Origin: a virus
DNA: 25,772 bases
Strand: one strand, 5' to 3'
Virus record (IMG/VR): IMGVR_UViG_3300046012_000364
Location: 1 to 25,772 of that record
In this document: positions 1 to 25,772 of the stretch, piece by piece
Numbering within the stretch: the first letter of the stretch is position 1
Layout: each line of letters opens with the position of its first letter
The notes under the pieces: model-generated
The model's input: the letters and a program-made list of their open reading frames with translations, nothing else
What the model was told of the DNA's origin: nothing
The model's database searches: none
Position numbers and translations under genes: made by a program

Positions 1-357
1 AAAGAGAGTAGTTGTCCGAGAGATCGGCCTCTCGGAAAAAACTGCGTCGTCTGTGTCGTCGTTCTCCGCGTCGTGGGGAGACGCGTCGTGCGTTTCCTGC
101 GCTGCGCGTCGTGCTTGTCGTGCTCCGAGTCGTACGAGTTCGCGTGAGAGTTCGCCTCCGGCTTTCCTGTTGCATGTCCGATGCGCGGGACGTGCTTCGT
201 GATCTTGTCCGCCGAGCGCGCGTGCTGTCGGATGATCGAGGTCCCATTCGTCCCAGGGTTGGACGAGTTGTCCGCAGCGGAGACAGGGGACGGGGAGTCT
301 CTGCTTCCAGCGCTGTCGTCGCGCTGTCCATTCGTGGGAAGTGAGGGAGTTTGTCAC
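1..357 (-). CDS. HNH endonuclease, runs off left edge
   Basis: The minus strand from 357 encodes a beta-beta-alpha metal nuclease of the phage HNH family. Visible in order are a CLRCG knuckle, WDLDHP (catalytic-type D-H), GGQDH, then RPAHRTCNRKAG, which supplies the second Cys and the closing Asn. The tail is basic, then acidic. The start is taken as GTG at 357 because the frame upstream has no other convincing start; the ribosome binding site is weak. The gene reaches position 1 still open. Such HNH genes sit directly upstream of terminase genes in cos-type phages and are needed for cleavage of packaged DNA. If the window is circular, the protein continues at 25772 and ends at 25728, giving about 133 residues. 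The family is clear; the start is less so. Confidence 0.85.
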   Translation of the reverse strand, partial: MTNSLTSHEWTARRQRWKQRLPVPCLRCGQLVQPWDEWDLDHPTARALGGQDHEARPAHRTCNRKAGGELSRELVRLGARQARRAAQETHDASPHDAENDDTDDAVFSERPISRTTTLF

Positions 358-667: not shown

Positions 668-740
668 CGGAGTGTGGCGCAGTCGGTAGCGCGCGTGTCT
701 GGGGGACACGAGGTCGCAGGTTCAAGTCCTGTCACTCCGA
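668..740 (+). tRNA. tRNA-Pro (anticodon GGG)
   Basis: A complete cloverleaf is visible. The 7-bp acceptor stem is CGGAGTG with CACTCCG. The 4-bp D stem is GCGC with GCGC. The 5-bp anticodon stem is CGTGT with ACACG around the loop CTGGGGG (anticodon GGG at 701-703, G at position 37). The T arm closes around TTCAAGT, and the discriminator is A at 740. CCA is not encoded. The D loop is one base shorter than in typical actinobacterial tRNA-Pro, which it otherwise resembles. It reads CCC and CCU, and CCC is common in the phage genes. It is intact, so it is more likely a phage-borne tRNA than a truncated attachment-site copy. Confidence 0.93.
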
Positions 741-744
741 CGTG

Positions 745-5658: not shown

Positions 5659-6126
5659 CTACTCCTCGATCGGGTAGATCCGGACGAGCACGCCGGGGAC
5701 GGACAGGACGTCGTCCCCGAACCAGTGGCCTCCGGGATAGGACTTGCGGGACAGGACTTCGACGACCTGGGAGTCGTCGTCGAGGACGTGCGCGTCCTGT
5801 AGCGCGTCCAGGACGAGACGCGCGAGTTTGTCGACGTCTCCTGTCCGTCCGAGCGCAGGGAACGCAGGAGCGTTCGCGCGCAGCGATCCTCCGCGTCCTA
5901 GATGGGACTGCGGACGCGGGACAGTCGACGTGATCTCGACTCCGATCGGCTGGTGTCGATCTGCTTGCGGAAGATCTCCGACAGCCGCGACGATCTCGTC
6001 CCTCCATCGTCCGACGTTCGGGCTGTCGTCGATCAGACGGTGGTGTCCGTTCCGCCCGACACACTTCAAGGATCCTTTCGGCGCAGGGAGTCCACGGACG
6101 ACGAAGCCGACCTCTCCCCGGATCAC
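5659..6126 (-). CDS. rusA: RusA-like Holliday junction resolvase
   Basis: This encodes 155 residues from GTG at 6126, overlapping the previous stop by GTGA. It opens with a strand ending GLPAPKGSLK, then has GDVDKLARLVLDALQ (Asp97, Asp99, Lys100, Asp107) and DDDSQVVEV (116-124). These are the RusA features: a P-D-x-D-N/K helix with D-A-L, and the D-D-x-Q-V strand carrying the catalytic acids. RusA dimers resolve branched DNA formed in recombination and replication. It lies downstream of RecT and the exonuclease, completing a small recombination set. Confidence 0.85.
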   Translation of the reverse strand: MIRGEVGFVVRGLPAPKGSLKCVGRNGHHRLIDDSPNVGRWRDEIVAAVGDLPQADRHQPIGVEITSTVPRPQSHLGRGGSLRANAPAFPALGRTGDVDKLARLVLDALQDAHVLDDDSQVVEVLSRKSYPGGHWFGDDVLSVPGVLVRIYPIEE

Positions 6127-6494
6127 GGCGGGGACTCCGCGTCGACGACGATCGAGTCCGCGACGATGGAGTCCAGCGTCCGGAACAGATCGAGGAGTTC
6201 GTCGGGGACGTCGCTCCACTGTCCGTCCGCGTCCAGTCCGAACAGGATCGTCGTCCCGTTGATCCCGTGGAAGGGACCTGGACGCGCTGCGAAGATCAGG
6301 AGCGACGCGTACATGTTCAGCGGAGCGACGTCGCGTGTCGAGTAGCGATCGACGAGCAGGACTGCTCCGGAATGGATCCGGACGGGATCGACCATCTGGG
6401 AGTCCAGGTACGCAGCGAGCACGTCGGGACGTTCCGGATCGACGTCGATCTCGCGGATCTCGCCGTCTGTGTAGAGGATCAGCGCTGTTGTCAT
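6123..6494 (-). CDS. DUF3846-like protein
   Basis: This encodes 123 residues from ATG at 6494, ATGA-coupled with recT and GTGA-coupled with rusA. A beta strand rich in small residues (ALILYTDGEIREIDV) leads to VLLVDRYSTRDVAPLNMYA, then FHGINGTTILFG. That is the DUF3846 order: acidic strand, P-x-N-x-x-A, and a late glycine-hydrophobic strand. It is a likely distant paralogue of the second half of the protein at 1772-2407. The function is unknown; its place between recombination genes suggests a role in DNA metabolism or its control. Confidence 0.6.
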   Translation of the reverse strand: MTTALILYTDGEIREIDVDPERPDVLAAYLDSQMVDPVRIHSGAVLLVDRYSTRDVAPLNMYASLLIFAARPGPFHGINGTTILFGLDADGQWSDVPDELLDLFRTLDSIVADSIVVDAESPP

Positions 6495-7711
6495 GCTGGA
6501 TCCGTACCCGGATCGAGTCCAGGCAGCGGAAGCGTGTCGTCTGCGACGTAGTCCGGTCCCGCAGGAGGAGTCGGAGCGCTCTTCGCTGTCGTGTCCTCGA
6601 TCCCGATCACTTCACCGAGCGTCGTGATCGACGACGACGCGAGGAGTTCGTCGAGCGTCTCTAGATCCTTCACAGTCGACAGGATCATCGTCAGGGTCTT
6701 GCCTTCGTCCTGCGTGAGATCGTTCGCGCTGTCGAGCTCGGAGCGCTCCACGAGACGAGCGAGGATCGAGAGCCTGTTCTCCCGCTCCTCTGGACTCTTG
6801 TCCTTGATCCCGAGTCGTCGGAGTTGTCCGAAGATCACGCGCAGCGTCACGGTGTTGATTCGTCCGCTGTCGGACGCTTGCTCCTCTGCGATCGTGGGAA
6901 CCGGAGGAGCGGGAGGAGGAGTCGCCGTCCGTCCCGCTTCCTCCGATCCCGACTGCTTCCCTTGCTTCTCTGGGAGTGACGGCTCGCGAGGAGCGCGGGG
7001 AGCAGCCGCGTCGTCGACCACAGGCGACGACTCCACAGGAGGAGTCGCGTCGTCGCTCTCCTCCCGCTTCGGGGATCTCGGACGACGCGAGACAGAGCGA
7101 GTCGTCGAGCGCTTACGGGGACTCGCGCTCTCGTCTCCCTGTCCCGCGCCGCGATCCGGGCTGCGTTCCATGTCGTCGAGTTCCTCCACGGAGCGGAATC
7201 CGTGGATCACGTCCGGGAAGAGGAGACGACAGAGCGCAGTCGTCGCGCGCGCGACGAGCATGTCGCGCGGATAGAACTCCCACGCGGAGCCGCGTCGGAG
7301 CAGACCTGCTGCGCGAGCCATGTCGATCGACCACTCGATCGGAGTCCAGTCCGTCGAGCGGAGACGACGTCCCCGGACACGACAGATCGCTCCCGTCGTC
7401 TCGTCGAACACGATCTCGTGTCCCGCTGCGAGGACGAGCGCGCGCATACCTTCCGCAGACAGTCCAGGACGTCCGTCGACGACATGGATCTGCGAGAGCG
7501 CAGTCATCGGAGGGAGTCCGACTTCGCGTCCGTAGAGCATCGCTGCGGCAGTCGCAGGGATCGAGTTGCGGATCCCCTTCGGGACGAAGTCTGTTCCCGC
7601 GATCTGCTGCGCGAGGAGTGTGACCTCGCGGACGACGGACACCCACGAGTCGGTGTCCTGTCGCGCGGGGAGCATGTCCGGACGATGCGTGTCGATCTGT
7701 GCGAGTGTCAT
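6491..7711 (-). CDS. recT: RecT-family single-strand annealing protein
   Basis: This encodes 406 residues from ATG at 7711 (ATGA overlap with the exonuclease gene). Residues 1-180 carry the RecT core: LAQQIAGTDFVPKGIR, then AAAMLYGREVGLPPMTAL, QIHVVDGRPGLSAEGMRALV, and a W-x-x-YPRDMLVARATT helix. RecT anneals complementary strands after a 5'-3' exonuclease has resected the ends; the upstream gene supplies that exonuclease. A long Pro/Ser/Ala-rich linker (about 190-280) joins a helical C-terminal domain (about 283-370, RINTVTLRVIFGQLRRLG). That domain resembles the helical tail seen in some actinobacterial RecT-like proteins and is not needed for the family call. Confidence 0.88.
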   Translation of the reverse strand: MTLAQIDTHRPDMLPARQDTDSWVSVVREVTLLAQQIAGTDFVPKGIRNSIPATAAAMLYGREVGLPPMTALSQIHVVDGRPGLSAEGMRALVLAAGHEIVFDETTGAICRVRGRRLRSTDWTPIEWSIDMARAAGLLRRGSAWEFYPRDMLVARATTALCRLLFPDVIHGFRSVEELDDMERSPDRGAGQGDESASPRKRSTTRSVSRRPRSPKREESDDATPPVESSPVVDDAAAPRAPREPSLPEKQGKQSGSEEAGRTATPPPAPPVPTIAEEQASDSGRINTVTLRVIFGQLRRLGIKDKSPEERENRLSILARLVERSELDSANDLTQDEGKTLTMILSTVKDLETLDELLASSSITTLGEVIGIEDTTAKSAPTPPAGPDYVADDTLPLPGLDPGTDPA

Positions 7712-8496
7712 GCGGGAACTCCTGTCCCGATCGTGATCGCGTCCCCGATCACTGGATCGAGTCCCCGAAAGCCGTGAGCGTCGAGCCAGCGTGCGACCTG
7801 TAGGACGTAGAGGAACGTCCGATACTCGTCTGCCTCCGCGACGACGGGGAGGAGTCGGACAGCGTCAGGCAGGACGTGCGCGACGTAGACACGTCGGACG
7901 TCGGGGACGTCGTCGCGTTCGATCCCGTCGACCTGCCAGAGATCTGCGTTCCGATACGCCGCGAGTTGCAGCGCGACGGACTCATAGACTCCCCGTCCGG
8001 TCTTGAGGTCGATCAACGCAGGCTCGTCGTCGAGGATCCCGATCGTCGCCCAGAGATCCGCAGTCCCTGCGTAGCCGTACTCCGTATTGGCGAGCGGAGT
8101 CTCCGTCGCGATCGGCTCGATCTCCCAGGAGTCCAGGAATCGCGCATACGCCTCCGCAGGTCCGACGTACTCCTCCGGGATCTCGACTGCGTCCCCGTGG
8201 ACGATCCGCTCGCCGTACTCGTGGATCTGTGTCCCCCGCAGGGACGCGGAGGAGAGCGTCTGCTTCCACGCGTAGCGCATGGAGTCCAGTCGCTTCGTGA
8301 GCGGCTGCTCCGCGAGTTCTGTCCAGTGTTCGACTGCGTAGTTCGCAGCAGTGTCCGCTCCCCATTGTTTGAGCGACAGCGGGAAGCCGTTGGAGATCGC
8401 AGTCGTCACTCCGTACGCCTTGATCCCGTCGAGCGTGTAGCCGTGTCCGCGTCCGTAGTTCGTGCGGACGAGTCGTCCAGCAGGAGCGCCGCTCAC
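7708..8496 (-). CDS. RecB/Cas4-like PD-(D/E)XK exonuclease
   Basis: This encodes 262 residues from GTG at 8496 (GTGA overlap). The nuclease core is LRGTQIHEYGERI (His92), YAGTADLWA (Asp147), LIDLKTGRG (Asp163-x-Lys165) and LQLAAYRNA (Gln177 and Tyr181). This matches the RecB nuclease / Cas4-like exonuclease set (H, D, D/E-x-K, QxxxY). There is no helicase domain, and I do not see the four Cys of an iron-sulfur Cas4, so it is better viewed as the phage exonuclease partner of RecT. No CRISPR array or cas gene is nearby, which argues against a Cas4 role. Confidence 0.88.
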   Translation of the reverse strand: MSGAPAGRLVRTNYGRGHGYTLDGIKAYGVTTAISNGFPLSLKQWGADTAANYAVEHWTELAEQPLTKRLDSMRYAWKQTLSSASLRGTQIHEYGERIVHGDAVEIPEEYVGPAEAYARFLDSWEIEPIATETPLANTEYGYAGTADLWATIGILDDEPALIDLKTGRGVYESVALQLAAYRNADLWQVDGIERDDVPDVRRVYVAHVLPDAVRLLPVVAEADEYRTFLYVLQVARWLDAHGFRGLDPVIGDAITIGTGVPA

Positions 8497-10035: not shown

Positions 10036-10323
10036 ATGCCGCGAGATCGGGACAGCAAGCGCGACGGACAGCAACGCGACGGAGAAGCACGAGAGGAGGA
10101 CTGGACAGGAGATCACGACTGGGTCACGACACGACAGGCAGCGGACTTCCTACAACTCCACGTCCGGACGATCCAGCGCTACGCGCGGGACGGAGCGATC
10201 CAACATGCGCGCGTGGGAGGACGTGTCCGACTCCGCAGGATCGACGTCGAGCGTCTCCTCGGACACGCGATCCCGGAGGAGGACGTCGCAGACAACTACG
10301 AACGGGAAGAGGAGGAGTCGTGA
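10036..10323 (+). CDS. Excisionase-family helix-turn-helix protein (rightward)
   Basis: This encodes 95 residues from ATG at 10036. A highly charged first 28 residues lead to WVTTRQAADFLQLHVRTIQR, then YARDGAIQHARVGGRVRLRR and IDVERLLG, the complete small winged-helix excisionase domain. The acidic tail (YEREEEES) is followed by a GTGA overlap with the ParB-like gene. Being on the rightward unit, opposite the similar gene at 9138-9368, it could be the lysogenic regulator while the other is the excisionase, or the reverse. Confidence 0.75.
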   Translation: MPRDRDSKRDGQQRDGEAREEDWTGDHDWVTTRQAADFLQLHVRTIQRYARDGAIQHARVGGRVRLRRIDVERLLGHAIPEEDVADNYEREEEES

Positions 10324-20819: not shown

Positions 20820-22085
20820 CTAGTCGCTCTTGGAGCGCGAGGACGTCGCTCCTGCGACGGGAGGAACGCCAGCAGTCGCCTCGCAGAGCGCTCCCGCCTC
20901 CGTGACAGCGAACGCGGCGCGCGCTTCCGCAAGGATGACGAGTTGATTCCGGAGGAAGTAGTCGGAGTGACTGTCGGACATGTAGACGTCCGTGTTCCCG
21001 CGATCGAACCACGTCTCCCCGGTCTTGAAGTCCCCGACGTACGCAGTCCCCGCGACGATGGAGCGTGCGGCGACGATCGGGAGTCCCCAGATCGCTCCGT
21101 TCCGGACGGCTCCGTTGTTCGTCTGCGTAAACACGTTCATGTCGAGTCCAGCAGCGTCCGCAGGATTGACGAGTACGGCGTTCGGCTTGAACCCCGCGCT
21201 CTCGACAGTCGCGATCCCTTCGCGGATCGCTGCGACGAGATCCCCGTCGTCAGAGACAGCAGGGAGCGACGCTGCGACGAGCGCTGCGACTGCGGCTGCT
21301 TCCAGCGCGGACGCGACACCGGAGAGCAGACGATTCTGCACGATCGTCTGGATCTGCGGAATGTCCTCCAACGCCTGACGCGTCACGGCCTTGTGATGCG
21401 CGTACGTGGACAGCGCGATCGTCGCCTCGACGGGATCCATGATCGCCTCGGGCTTGAGCGCTCCCTCTGCGACGACAGGAGCGTCGCCGGGAGGCTGCGG
21501 AGTCCACGTCAGATACATGACAGCCGCCTGCGACGTCTGGACGCGTCCGATCAAGTTCAGGACGGTGTTCTCAAAGCGGGGAGTCTGCGGTCCCGCCCAG
21601 AGTTGCGGGACAGGACCCGTGTACGCAGCGAGTCCTACGTCTCCGGACATGATCGCTGCGCGGAACTCCGCCGACGCGGGACCGGGGAGCGTGACACGCT
21701 CCGACGTCCCCGCTCCGCGATAGTTGCGGAACGCAGTCGACTCCACGAAGCGCTGTCCGAACGCTGCGCGCGTCGCGAGCTCGCGTCCTTCGCTCTCGTC
21801 CTTCGGAGCGTCGTCGTGCGCGTCGTCGTGCGCGCGCTCGTGCTTCTCCTCCGCTTGCTTCTGCGCTCCGACGAGCGCAGCGAACTTCGCAGCGCCTTCG
21901 TCGAACGACTTGATCCGCTCGATCTCTTCGTCGAGCGCTTGGAGTCGAGCGACGATCTGATCGAACGTCGTCCGCTCTGCGTCTGTGAGGTCCCTCTTAT
22001 CGTCTGCGGCGCGCGTCTGGAGGCTCCGAAGGACCTCCGACTGTGACGCGCGCTCCTCGATCTTGGATCGGAGATACACGTTCAC
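20820..22085 (-). CDS. Major capsid protein, HK97 fold, with N-terminal delta domain
   Basis: This encodes 421 residues from GTG at 22085, with GGGAG upstream. The first 75 residues form a coiled coil (SKIEERASQSEVLRSL ... LDEEIERIKSF), followed by a charged His/Asp-rich stretch to about 105. This is the scaffolding-like delta domain that the protease removes. The rest fits the HK97 fold: VAEGALKPE (E-loop region), the spine helix HHKAVTRQALEDIP, NAVLVNPADA, GLPIVAARSIVAGTAYVGDF, then DSHSDYFLRNQLVILAE. The gene has a 170-bp leader with repeats and probably its own regulation. Confidence 0.92.
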   Translation of the reverse strand: MNVYLRSKIEERASQSEVLRSLQTRAADDKRDLTDAERTTFDQIVARLQALDEEIERIKSFDEGAAKFAALVGAQKQAEEKHERAHDDAHDDAPKDESEGRELATRAAFGQRFVESTAFRNYRGAGTSERVTLPGPASAEFRAAIMSGDVGLAAYTGPVPQLWAGPQTPRFENTVLNLIGRVQTSQAAVMYLTWTPQPPGDAPVVAEGALKPEAIMDPVEATIALSTYAHHKAVTRQALEDIPQIQTIVQNRLLSGVASALEAAAVAALVAASLPAVSDDGDLVAAIREGIATVESAGFKPNAVLVNPADAAGLDMNVFTQTNNGAVRNGAIWGLPIVAARSIVAGTAYVGDFKTGETWFDRGNTDVYMSDSHSDYFLRNQLVILAEARAAFAVTEAGALCEATAGVPPVAGATSSRSKSD

Positions 22086-22256: not shown

Positions 22257-22343
22257 TCAGGGACGACGACGTCCCGCGAAGAGGAACGCGACGATCGCTG
22301 CGACAGCGATCACGACGAGCAGGAGCACGAGCCAGCCGCTCAT
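22257..22343 (-). CDS. Tiny transmembrane protein
   Basis: This encodes 28 residues, ATGA-coupled to the protease stop. The sequence is MSGWLVLLLVVIAVAAIVAF followed by LFAGRRRP: one transmembrane helix with a basic end. It lies between protease and capsid genes, an odd place for a membrane peptide. The 4-nt overlap and clean hydrophobic profile support it. Its function is unknown. Confidence 0.55.
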   Translation of the reverse strand: MSGWLVLLLVVIAVAAIVAFLFAGRRRP

Positions 22344-22921
22344 CGCGAGCCTCCCCAGACGAGACGGGACAGATCGACGAACTCGGGGAGCGTGTCGACG
22401 TCGTACGTCACTGCGAGGAGCGACTCGACGTCGGGGAGCGCAGCGCGGACAGCGAGGACACGCGCGTCCGCATACGCAGGCTCGTCGACGAGCGAGACGT
22501 GGAAGAGACGAGCGCGGAGGATCTCGCGTGCTCCGTCCTCCTCGGAACGTCGCTCCTCGATCGGGAGGAAGCCGACGGAGAGTCCGCCGTACGTCTCCTC
22601 CTGGACGTTCTCCCGCGCCCCGCGTCCCTCCGGAGTGTTGTAGAAGCGGAAGCGTCCGAACAGTCCGTCGTCTGTGTCGCGGAACTCCGTCGCGACTCCG
22701 ACAGGACGCTTCCCCGTCTCGTCGTGGGAGTCCGTGAGCCGGATCTTTGCTGGACCGGACTCTGCGAGCTCGCGGAACGCTCCTGCGAGGAAGCGCTCCC
22801 CGCGCGGGTATCCCGCTTTCAGTGTCGTCACTCCGTACGGGACGCACAGTCCGTCGAGACTGTGCTCCCCGTCGTGTCGGAGTTCCAGAGGGACGATCGT
22901 CGTCTCGGATCGGATGGTCAT
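22340..22921 (-). CDS. Prohead protease (HK97 family, U35)
   Basis: This encodes 193 residues from ATG at 22921, one base after the portal stop. The motifs are IRLTDSHDETGKRPVG (His66), EETYGGLSVGF (Ser115) and ARLFHVSLVDEPAY, which are the catalytic His, catalytic Ser and third conserved segment of the herpesvirus-like phage maturation proteases. It cleaves the delta domain of the capsid protein during head maturation. Length and gene order (portal, protease, capsid) are standard. Confidence 0.92.
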   Translation of the reverse strand: MTIRSETTIVPLELRHDGEHSLDGLCVPYGVTTLKAGYPRGERFLAGAFRELAESGPAKIRLTDSHDETGKRPVGVATEFRDTDDGLFGRFRFYNTPEGRGARENVQEETYGGLSVGFLPIEERRSEEDGAREILRARLFHVSLVDEPAYADARVLAVRAALPDVESLLAVTYDVDTLPEFVDLSRLVWGGSR

Positions 22922-22922
22922 G

Positions 22923-24194
22923 TCAGGACACCTCTCGTCGGTTCATCGCGGACGCGTAGTCGAGCGCCTTGCGTGCTTGGAGATCGGACAGAGGAGGGAG
23001 CGACTCCCGCTCCCGAACTTCGTCGATCGTCAGGAAGCCAGCGGAGAGTCCAACCGCGTACGCGTCATAGCGGGTCTTGGTGTCCGCGCGTCGGAGTCCG
23101 TCGAGGTTGAGTTTCAGCGTCGTCCCCCAGGGGAGGACAGCGTCGAACGCAGCCTCCGCGCGACGCGCCCACGGGAGCAGCGCGTCCTGGACGTAGTCGA
23201 TCGACGCGGACTCGACGTTCGCGTACGTGTTGTTCGATCCCATCGAGATCCCGAGCTTGTAGGGAGGGATCCCGTAGATGAGCGCTATCTCCCACGCGGA
23301 CAGTCGCAGGAGTTCTGCGAGTTGGAGCGCCTGCGGATCGAGTTGCAGAGGATGGAACTCCGTCGCTGCGTTGAGGACAGCGATCCGACGATCCCGTCCC
23401 CCGTGCGCTTCCCACCAGCGCTTTTTGAGGAGATCCGCTTCCGTCTGTTCCAGATCGGGAGAGTTCACTTTCAGATAGCCAGCAGGGATCCCGCGTCCGA
23501 GCATCTGCGCTGCGTAGTCGCGCGTCGCGATCCCGAAGCCAATGTCTGCGCGGAACTGGTCCCAGACTCCGTGTCCCCGCAGGTGTCCAGGCCAGACGCG
23601 TCCACGGATGATGAGGAGTTCCGTCGCGTCGACGGGGACGTCGTTCACGTAGTAGCGATCGCGCTCGATCTCGACGTCGCGCGGATTCAGGATGAAGCAA
23701 CCTCGCGCGCCGAAGTCGGAGACGACAGTCCCCGAGTCGTCAGTCGTCGGGGAGTAGACGATCCCCTCCCCGAGCTCGACAGCGGAGACGAACACTGTCG
23801 ACCAGAACTCGACTGCGGAGAGCGCGACGTTCCGGACAGTCGATCCCTTCCGTCCGTCGTCCGCGAGATTCTGCGGATCGAGGATCCATGTCGGAGTCGG
23901 GATCTGATCCCGTCCCTGGTAGACGTTGAACGGGACGCCTGCGAGCGCGTCGCAGATCAACGCGCGACAGCGTCCCATCGCAGGAAGCGACGAGCGTCCT
24001 CCCGCGAAGCCGTCTGCTCCGGGAGGCGGATTCCCCCAGACGACGTCCCCGTCCCCGGAGTCCCCGTTCCCTGTCCACCAAAGCCACGGGGAGTCGATCT
24101 CCCATCCGTCCGGAGAGTTCCGGAGCACGTCGCGCCCGTCCGTCGCGTAGAGGACTTTCCCTGGACGATCCGATCTTGCCGGCAAAGGGGACAC
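22923..24194 (-). CDS. Portal protein (HK97 gp3-like)
   Basis: This encodes 423 residues from GTG at 24194; the TerL stop forms the ribosome site (TAGGAG). Features of the phage portal family are LICDALAGVPFNVYQ near the N-terminus, LLIIRGRVWPGHLRGHG, and later LRLSAWEIALIYGIPPYKLG followed by SNNTYANVES, the conserved A-x-x-x-x-x-P-x-x-x-L-G region near the channel. Twelve copies form the ring through which DNA enters and leaves the head. Length is typical. Confidence 0.92.
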   Translation of the reverse strand: MSPLPARSDRPGKVLYATDGRDVLRNSPDGWEIDSPWLWWTGNGDSGDGDVVWGNPPPGADGFAGGRSSLPAMGRCRALICDALAGVPFNVYQGRDQIPTPTWILDPQNLADDGRKGSTVRNVALSAVEFWSTVFVSAVELGEGIVYSPTTDDSGTVVSDFGARGCFILNPRDVEIERDRYYVNDVPVDATELLIIRGRVWPGHLRGHGVWDQFRADIGFGIATRDYAAQMLGRGIPAGYLKVNSPDLEQTEADLLKKRWWEAHGGRDRRIAVLNAATEFHPLQLDPQALQLAELLRLSAWEIALIYGIPPYKLGISMGSNNTYANVESASIDYVQDALLPWARRAEAAFDAVLPWGTTLKLNLDGLRRADTKTRYDAYAVGLSAGFLTIDEVRERESLPPLSDLQARKALDYASAMNRREVS

Positions 24195-24202
24195 GGGGAC
24201 TC

Positions 24203-25772
24203 CTAGAAGATCGCTGGACGCGGAAGCGGGACGTCGACGTTGCCGTCGACGACGAGACGGACAGACGACGCGAGCGCTCGGACGAGATCCGTCCGATTCG
24301 CTCTGTGCGGGATGACGAGTCCGCCTTCACGCTGCGCGACACGACACGACGCGAGTTGCTGCGCGAACGCTGGATCGTTCCCGTGACGGATCCGTCCCTG
24401 TCGCGTCAGGATCCGGATCAACGCGAGTCCAGCGCGCATGTCGGACGGGGACGCCTTGACGACAGCGACGTCGGGGAGCGCTTCACGCACAGGCTCGATC
24501 GCGAGCGACGTCCCCGCGATCACAGTCGATCCGCGACGTCCGTCCGTGAGCCACGCTGCCCACGCGAACGCTTCCTCCCGTCCGGGGAACATGCTCCCCC
24601 AGACGACGACACGTCCGTCCGGAAGTCGCTGCGCTGCGACAGCGGACGCGCCGATCCCGAACCAGTCCTCGATCCCGACTGCGACAGGATCGTTCGTCGG
24701 CTCGACAGACAGATCCGCGAGCGTGCTCCACTCGTCGAGCTCGACGAGCGGCTCCTCCGACGTCGACGTCACGAGCGTCCGATCCGGCCAGACGTTGAGA
24801 TACTGCGAGCGGAACGACTCGACGGGATCATCTTCGTCGGGATCCTCCGACACTCCCCGCAGGACGCGCTCTAACTTCGCAGACAGCAGACGCTCCCGCA
24901 TCGCGGACCAGTGAGGGGACGACGAACGCCATGCGTCGCGATCCTCGATCGACGCGTCGCGAGGAGCAGACCATTCCAGGATCAGAGCAGTCCCCGGCTC
25001 GCTCATCGCGGAGACAGCGGCAGCGCGACGCAGCGGGAACAGCGACGACGCGCGACGATGAGCAGTCGACACGAGCCAGAGTTGCGGATCGACACGATCA
25101 CCGAGCGTCGGCTCGACACCGTCCTCCACGATCTCCGGCTCCACTCCCCACGCTTCGTCCACGAGTCCGACAGCGACGGGATAGCCGTACACAGAGAAGC
25201 GGGCACGCACGATCCAGCGCGACTCCCCGATCGAGATCTCCTCCGCGCCGTTCGCTTCACGGACTTTGTATCCCCCACGCGAACGCGCCCACACTCGCGC
25301 GGGACGCATGACCTCCTTGCAGACCGGGAGATCCTTCCCCGTATGCAGAACAGTCTGCGGCTCCCCGAACAGATCCTCCCGATGGATCCTCCACGTCGCG
25401 AGCGCGCGGATCGCGACAGACTTTCCCACCTGACGCGGAGTCGTGACGTCGATCTCGATCCAGCACAGACGACCGTCCGCGTCGTGTTCCAGAGCGCGCG
25501 TCAGAACCAGTCGCTGCCACCAGCGGAGATCCAGATCCGCGTTCGCAGACAGCCACGCGCACGCGTCCGCGCCGTACGATCCGACAGCGTCAGGATGCGG
25601 AGCAGACATGAGACGCGGCCACGCTGCGTCCTCCGGGACGCAGCGCAGATCGTCCAGCCAGATCGCGCGATCCCACGACGGATCCGACGACTCCGGACAG
25701 GACGCAGGGAGATCCGGGGACTCCCGGTCAGGGAGTGACAGGGGAGGGATTCCAGCGCTTGGAGTATTCCCC
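24203..25772 (-). CDS. terL: Terminase large subunit, N-terminus at the right edge
   Basis: The packaging ATPase and nuclease. Counting from the internal Met at 25609, the Walker A is TTPRQVGKS (56-64), Walker B is VGLVDEAWG (Asp151 and Glu152), and the coupling motif is WLVSTAH (Ser181 and Thr182). The C-terminal RNase H-like nuclease part includes VAVGIEDWFG and ends in an ASCRVAQREGGLVI segment. The frame stays open upstream of that Met with conserved-looking residues (PDRESPDLPASC, then SWDRAIWLDDL), so the true start is farther right. No ATG or GTG occurs before the edge. If the window is circular, TTG spanning the joint (2, 1, 25772) would start MGNTPSAG. Confidence 0.92.
   Translation of the reverse strand, partial: GNTPSAGIPPLSLPDRESPDLPASCPESSDPSWDRAIWLDDLRCVPEDAAWPRLMSAPHPDAVGSYGADACAWLSANADLDLRWWQRLVLTRALEHDADGRLCWIEIDVTTPRQVGKSVAIRALATWRIHREDLFGEPQTVLHTGKDLPVCKEVMRPARVWARSRGGYKVREANGAEEISIGESRWIVRARFSVYGYPVAVGLVDEAWGVEPEIVEDGVEPTLGDRVDPQLWLVSTAHRRASSLFPLRRAAAVSAMSEPGTALILEWSAPRDASIEDRDAWRSSSPHWSAMRERLLSAKLERVLRGVSEDPDEDDPVESFRSQYLNVWPDRTLVTSTSEEPLVELDEWSTLADLSVEPTNDPVAVGIEDWFGIGASAVAAQRLPDGRVVVWGSMFPGREEAFAWAAWLTDGRRGSTVIAGTSLAIEPVREALPDVAVVKASPSDMRAGLALIRILTRQGRIRHGNDPAFAQQLASCRVAQREGGLVIPHRANRTDLVRALASSVRLVVDGNVDVPLPRPAIF
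25728..25772 (-). other. Predicted C-terminal codons of the HNH endonuclease if the window is circular
   Basis: Continuing the HNH frame from position 1 to 25772 gives GEYSKRWNPSPVTP and then a TGA stop at 25730-25728. A short end with an S-x-x-W motif is usual for phage HNH proteins. The stretch overlaps the TerL N-terminus in another frame. Confidence 0.55.

Follow-up and report, generated by a model that had tools for sequence, protein, structure and literature searches.

The window analysed here, the whole 25,772-nucleotide stretch of IMG/VR record IMGVR_UViG_3300046012_000364, almost certainly holds a complete phage genome that is linear and cohesive-ended, the two termini of the window being its physical ends. 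Taken as a whole, our reading is that this complete cos-ended unit has its ends cut inside a single HNH-TerL gene and joined in the cell, to which we assign a probability of roughly 0.87. The supported genome form is linear in the virion, with cohesive (cos) ends, and circular after entry, and the unit length is about 25,756 bp once a 6-nt tail is dropped from each terminus and the shared AGTA/TACT is counted once. The original prediction of a complete circular genome thus stands as regards completeness and the adjoining of the ends in the cell (relatives, G003), whereas "circular" has to give way to linear and cos-ended in the virion. The gene order it described, HNH-TerL-portal-protease-capsid, agrees with the PHROG and Pfam matches (Table 1).

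Table 1. Features of the window bearing on its ends, the packaging gene and the adjoining structural genes (coordinates on the window).
Feature	Positions	Strand	Basis or remark
Probable non-genomic tail AAAGAG (CTCTTT on the coding strand)	1..6		homopurine reading inward; frame closes only without the tail
cos overhang, HNH-end copy (AGTA; TACT on the coding strand)	7..10	-	identical to 25763-25766
Fused gene, 5' half: from the GTG start through the HNH domain into the linker	7..357	-	PHROG HNH, E 4e-6 to 7e-4
T-run, TTTTTT in coding-strand orientation; its end lies 25 nt ahead of the 4-nt overhang	36..41	-	recurrent cos-flank feature
Major capsid protein	20820..22085	-	PF05065, E 5e-18
Prohead protease	22340..22921	-	PF04586, E 5e-13
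Portal protein	22923..24194	-	PF04860, E 5e-51
Fused gene, 3' half: remainder of the linker, then TerL ATPase and nuclease	24203..25766	-	large terminase subunit family PHROG_9 (E 2.6e-24)
C-rich motif CCCTCCCC, 14 nt downstream of the overhang	25741..25748	-	untailed relatives mostly start 12-17 nt before it
cos overhang, TerL-end copy (TACT)	25763..25766	-	expected distance from the C-rich motif
Probable non-genomic tail TTCCCC (coding strand: GGGGAA)	25767..25772		as in other tailed contigs; frame closes only without the tail
Proposed joined sequence: ...CGGACAAC-TACT-CCAAGCGCTGGAAT...			

Fixed genome ends among relatives

The record spans its whole contig and is given without a repeat in the end-class listing of IMG/VR. 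No terminal repeats above the chance length of 10-11 bp were found in the window, and a direct search of viral contigs returned no match to the window's own junction. That the ends belong together is confirmed from relatives, by comparison of their contig sequences. The nearest relative with a mapped genome (G003, 26,024 bp; 61-68% amino acid identity in TerL, portal, protease and major capsid protein) is circularly permuted with respect to the window: HNH (5769-6017) is followed without interruption by TerL (6045-7628) in its contig, whose own ends map to a region that is continuous in the window. This indicates that the window is a full unit. The size is unexceptional within the group, in which relatives range from 21.8 to 26.0 kb.

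The positions at which related contigs begin point the same way. Among the first 32 TerL relatives from IMG/VR, 13 contigs start 154-200 nt before the TerL Met, and the window starts 163 nt before it. A larger search yielded 475 confirmed relatives in this one virus collection, and in the best 80 of these, which were kept, start positions are bimodal, most of them lying either 88-252 or 390-473 nt ahead of the TerL Met. Two contigs from two metagenomes (L110 and L111) have the identical first base and represent one virus assembled twice. Coinciding starts of this kind suggest fixed physical ends, since independent assembly breaks would not give such coincidence. Ends that are unique, fixed and common to independent assemblies are those of a cos-type phage; the permuted ends of headful (pac) packaging were not seen, the ends coinciding across relatives. 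The window's lack of end repeats might in itself suggest ordinary assembly breaks and an incomplete genome, but its ends fall within a few nucleotides of those of many relatives, including the virus recovered twice at the same base, and the permuted relative agrees with it in length and gene order. We regard breakage as extremely improbable.

Probable library tails and the cos site

The outermost six bases at each end of the window (1-6 and 25767-25772) are probably tails of the Adaptase type, added during preparation of the sequencing library. On the coding strand, GGGGAA stands ahead of TACT at the TerL end and CTCTTT behind TACT at the HNH end. Homopurine starts of at least 5 nt occur in 16 of 20 contigs of metagenomes 3300037070, 3300037071 and 3300037119 and in 0 of 29 elsewhere (Fisher 1.4e-9, a descriptive value, as the contigs were grouped by metagenome once the pattern was already apparent). 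Two contigs of the same virus (L020 and L021) carry different purine runs ahead of the same genomic base. The Accel-NGS 1S (Adaptase) kit leaves a low-complexity tail and has been used for JGI soil viromes, from which a 10 bp tail was removed (PMC6612421); the same kit was presumably used for the three metagenomes above and for that of the window. The tail boundary is ambiguous by one base, and the run common to both ends could be GAGTA. We also considered GGGGAAT, which the window has in common with L002, as genomic sequence. This was rejected because L020 and L021 differ in their outermost bases, with the inner ones agreeing, and because the frame described below closes only without it.

The bases kept or lost at contig ends (G032, G011, G038 and the window) suggest that the virion DNA ends in 4-nt 3' overhangs (TACT), with the polarity and exact length in the window phage predicted from these comparisons. 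One relative tailed at both ends like the window (G038) has 4 nt common to both ends, and its frame closes. The untailed G032 ends on its HNH side in TTTTTTGACAGTGGCGCAATCTTCGTTGGG, and its TerL side, which begins 14 nt before the C-rich motif, reads GCCGCGTACTTTCC followed by TACCC. Compared with L057, which runs through the site and has GACT at this position, G032 lacks four bases, its HNH side being 4 nt short. Both G032 and G011 come into frame only with 1 or 4 missing bases (0-5 tried; 1 mod 3). Four bases missing from both sides are as expected if end repair trims 3' overhangs. A 14-nt 5' overhang was considered on account of G006 (25,968 bp; L034/L035), in which a 14-bp terminal direct repeat, TCTGGACAAATCTC, is found as a single copy in the near relative L008. 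We rejected this model because G032 and G011 require 1 mod 3 and G032 is without the four bases that are GACT in L057. The HNH side of G006 is nonetheless 14 nt longer than the 4-nt model predicts, which counts against that model.

The flanks of the site recur among relatives. The T-run precedes the cut by about 30-36 nt in L057, L004, L015, G032, G033 and G006, and the HNH-side ends of untailed contigs fall about 30 nt past its start. Beside the T-run, just inside the HNH-side genome end, the window also has an inverted repeat (CCGAGAG/CTCTCGG, 16-35), which could be a packaging recognition hairpin or a terminator.

An HNH-TerL frame across cos

As originally predicted, neither frame is closed at its edge of the window: the HNH frame (minus strand, GTG at 357) is still open on reaching position 1, and that of TerL as far as the right edge. 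When the tails are trimmed and the ends joined, the HNH frame crosses cos into TerL (...DDAVFSERPISRTTT-PSAGIPPLSLPD...WDRAIWLDDLRCVPEDAAWPRLM...), giving 636 codons from the GTG. In-frame closure is also obtained in G038 and, with 4 unknown bases, in G032 and G011. An HNH-type domain was found upstream in the TerL frame at all 24 spanning loci of the best-80 set, some of which are re-fetched copies. Over ten linkers, first-order shuffling gave a chance product of about 3e-17 for frame agreement and openness, a figure that is overstated because the loci are related, while its direction is clear. These observations argue that HNH and TerL form one continuous gene, from which a fused protein would be produced. 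Cos can be placed, from the sequence, inside the linker of this frame in the window's branch, so that virion DNA would carry the gene as two halves, and the gene appears to be whole only once the virus genome is circular.

Each half has recognisable family features. The window's HNH domain carries the motif CxxCG...WDLDH...ALGG...RPAHxxCN and is 51-59% identical to the HNH domains of relatives; Pfam HNH matches to the fused proteins fall below the curated cut-off, and NCBIfam gave no family. Homology to TerL ATPase and nuclease is seen both in the PHROG_9 match of the 3' half and in the fold of relative L015, whose best PDB match is the HK97 TerL (Foldseek, 6z6d; E 6e-13); confidence in the fold model is modest (pLDDT 69). 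The 3' half also has a conserved segment, W...xWL..LR.VP..A.WPRLM. A comparison of linker substitutions between two close relatives gave a weak pattern (pN/pS about 0.6).

Two other accounts of this region start from the same ends. The original prediction closed HNH after 14 codons and started TerL at a TTG across the joint. Simple concatenation does read GEYSKRWNPSPVTP and then a stop, and the TTG is likewise present, but both are products of tail bases: the joint arises through 12 terminal bases that carry the typical signs of library tails, it is seen in no relative, and it disrupts the frame that all spanning relatives keep. Neither the proposed HNH C-terminus nor the TTG start survives removal of the tails, and we give the literal joint almost no credence. 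Alternatively, the genome may be complete and cos-ended, with HNH and TerL nevertheless made as two proteins, the frames open by chance and TerL started internally at a non-canonical codon. GTG and TTG codons do occur in the linker of the TerL halves of several relatives, in which internal initiation is possible, and HNH and TerL are separate in HK97 (PMC9410871). The window has none of these codons: between cos and the Met at 25609 there is no in-frame ATG, GTG, TTG or stop. A start at that Met would cut off the conserved WL..LR.VP..A.WPR segment, and neither the single frame kept at 24 of 24 spanning loci nor the chance product over ten loci is readily accounted for by two proteins. We judge this account unlikely, if less so than the literal joint, and favour the single continuous gene.

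Packaging, relatives and neighbouring genes

Under the mechanism we propose, the window would be one complete unit of a temperate-looking siphovirus with linear, cohesive-ended virion DNA, its ends cut inside the gene of the enzyme most likely to cut them, which consists of an N-terminal HNH domain, a variable linker and a C-terminal TerL. In the virion, the TerL half would be the first gene and the HNH half the last. After injection, the 4-nt 3' overhangs (TACT) would anneal and be sealed, restoring one 636-codon frame. Late in infection, the fused protein would be expressed from DNA that is circular or concatemeric. Its two domains, HNH and TerL, may then make nicks in both strands at cos, which lies in linker DNA with the T-run on one side and the C-rich motif on the other, and so release the next genome. 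In a fusion of this kind, both nucleases would be carried to cos by a single chain. Since late phage proteins are made after circularisation or replication, a gene divided in the virion need not be a disadvantage to the phage. No TerS gene was recognised alongside TerL; an HTH protein (10036-10323) has a weak match to a TerS family and a better one to an excisionase family. As a tentative proposal, which we would place somewhat short of even odds, a large lineage of soil viruses would dispense with a conventional small subunit, relying on a single-chain HNH-TerL with its own cos in the linker, such that packaging cuts the packaging gene and ties its expression to circularisation.

The closest known parallel is HK97, in which a separate HNH protein, gp74, promotes cos cleavage by TerL (PMC9410871). 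In both systems HNH would work with TerL at cos, the overhangs are 3' (predicted in the window phage) and the TerL fold is similar; as in the HK97-type module, an HNH nuclease is encoded beside cos and terminase. The two differ in that HK97 HNH (gp74) and TerL (gp2) are separate polypeptides, whereas in the window phage they are read from the sequence as one chain, with one open frame at every spanning locus and cos within the coding frame. The predicted overhang is 4 nt, compared with 10-12 nt in HK97 (PMC9410871 gives both figures), and HK97 has a TerS (gp1), unlike the window phage, in which none was recognised next to TerL. HNH proteins are known helpers of cos cleavage, and this lineage, with its 475 relatives in one collection, would offer a natural single-chain version.

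Among cultured phages in INPHARED, no fused relatives were found. TerL proteins of actinophages (Gordonia, Mycobacterium and Rhodococcus phages; Corynebacterium phage BFK20) are homologous at 21-28% identity, and among the matches listed none covers the HNH part of the fused query; they are plain TerL by annotation and come from larger cultured phages. A prophage-like locus of Nocardioides soli DSM 105498 (L079:5890-7800) does have a 636-codon single frame with an HNH-like CxxC...GH...C and TerL. It is distant (36% identity), lies in the cultured strain's genome and is a possible laboratory entry point. Searches of an open-licence paper library yielded neither an HNH-TerL single-chain fusion nor a cos inside a gene. 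The window's branch would also show that a terminase gene can sit in two halves in the virion. More generally, contigs recorded as linear fragments may in fact be complete genomes with their ends at cos, where library tails left in place can produce false stops and starts.

Two layouts occur among the relatives. One, that of the window's branch, places cos within the frame, between HNH and TerL; in the other, represented by L014, L019, L025, L026, L028, L031 and further relatives, the cos motif and the start of the contig precede HNH, which belongs to a different subfamily. In the TerL tree, the 16 cos-before-HNH rows form one clade (100/100); tree labels were assigned by HNH type from the pattern and a few are uncertain, so our claim is limited to the layouts being clustered.

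Several other genes of the window deserve mention. A tRNA-Pro (GGG) lies near the HNH end (668-741, plus strand), with neighbouring genes on the opposite strand, and may be either a phage tRNA or an attachment-site remnant. A recombination module comprises a RecT-like annealing protein and an exonuclease (6491-8496, minus strand) and a RusA-like resolvase (5659-6219). A Mom-like DNA modification protein (PHROG_1384, E 1.6e-32) adjoins a C5 cytosine methyltransferase-like gene (PF00145; 4126-5535 and 4809-5654, minus strand), and the pair possibly provides a two-part protection of phage DNA.
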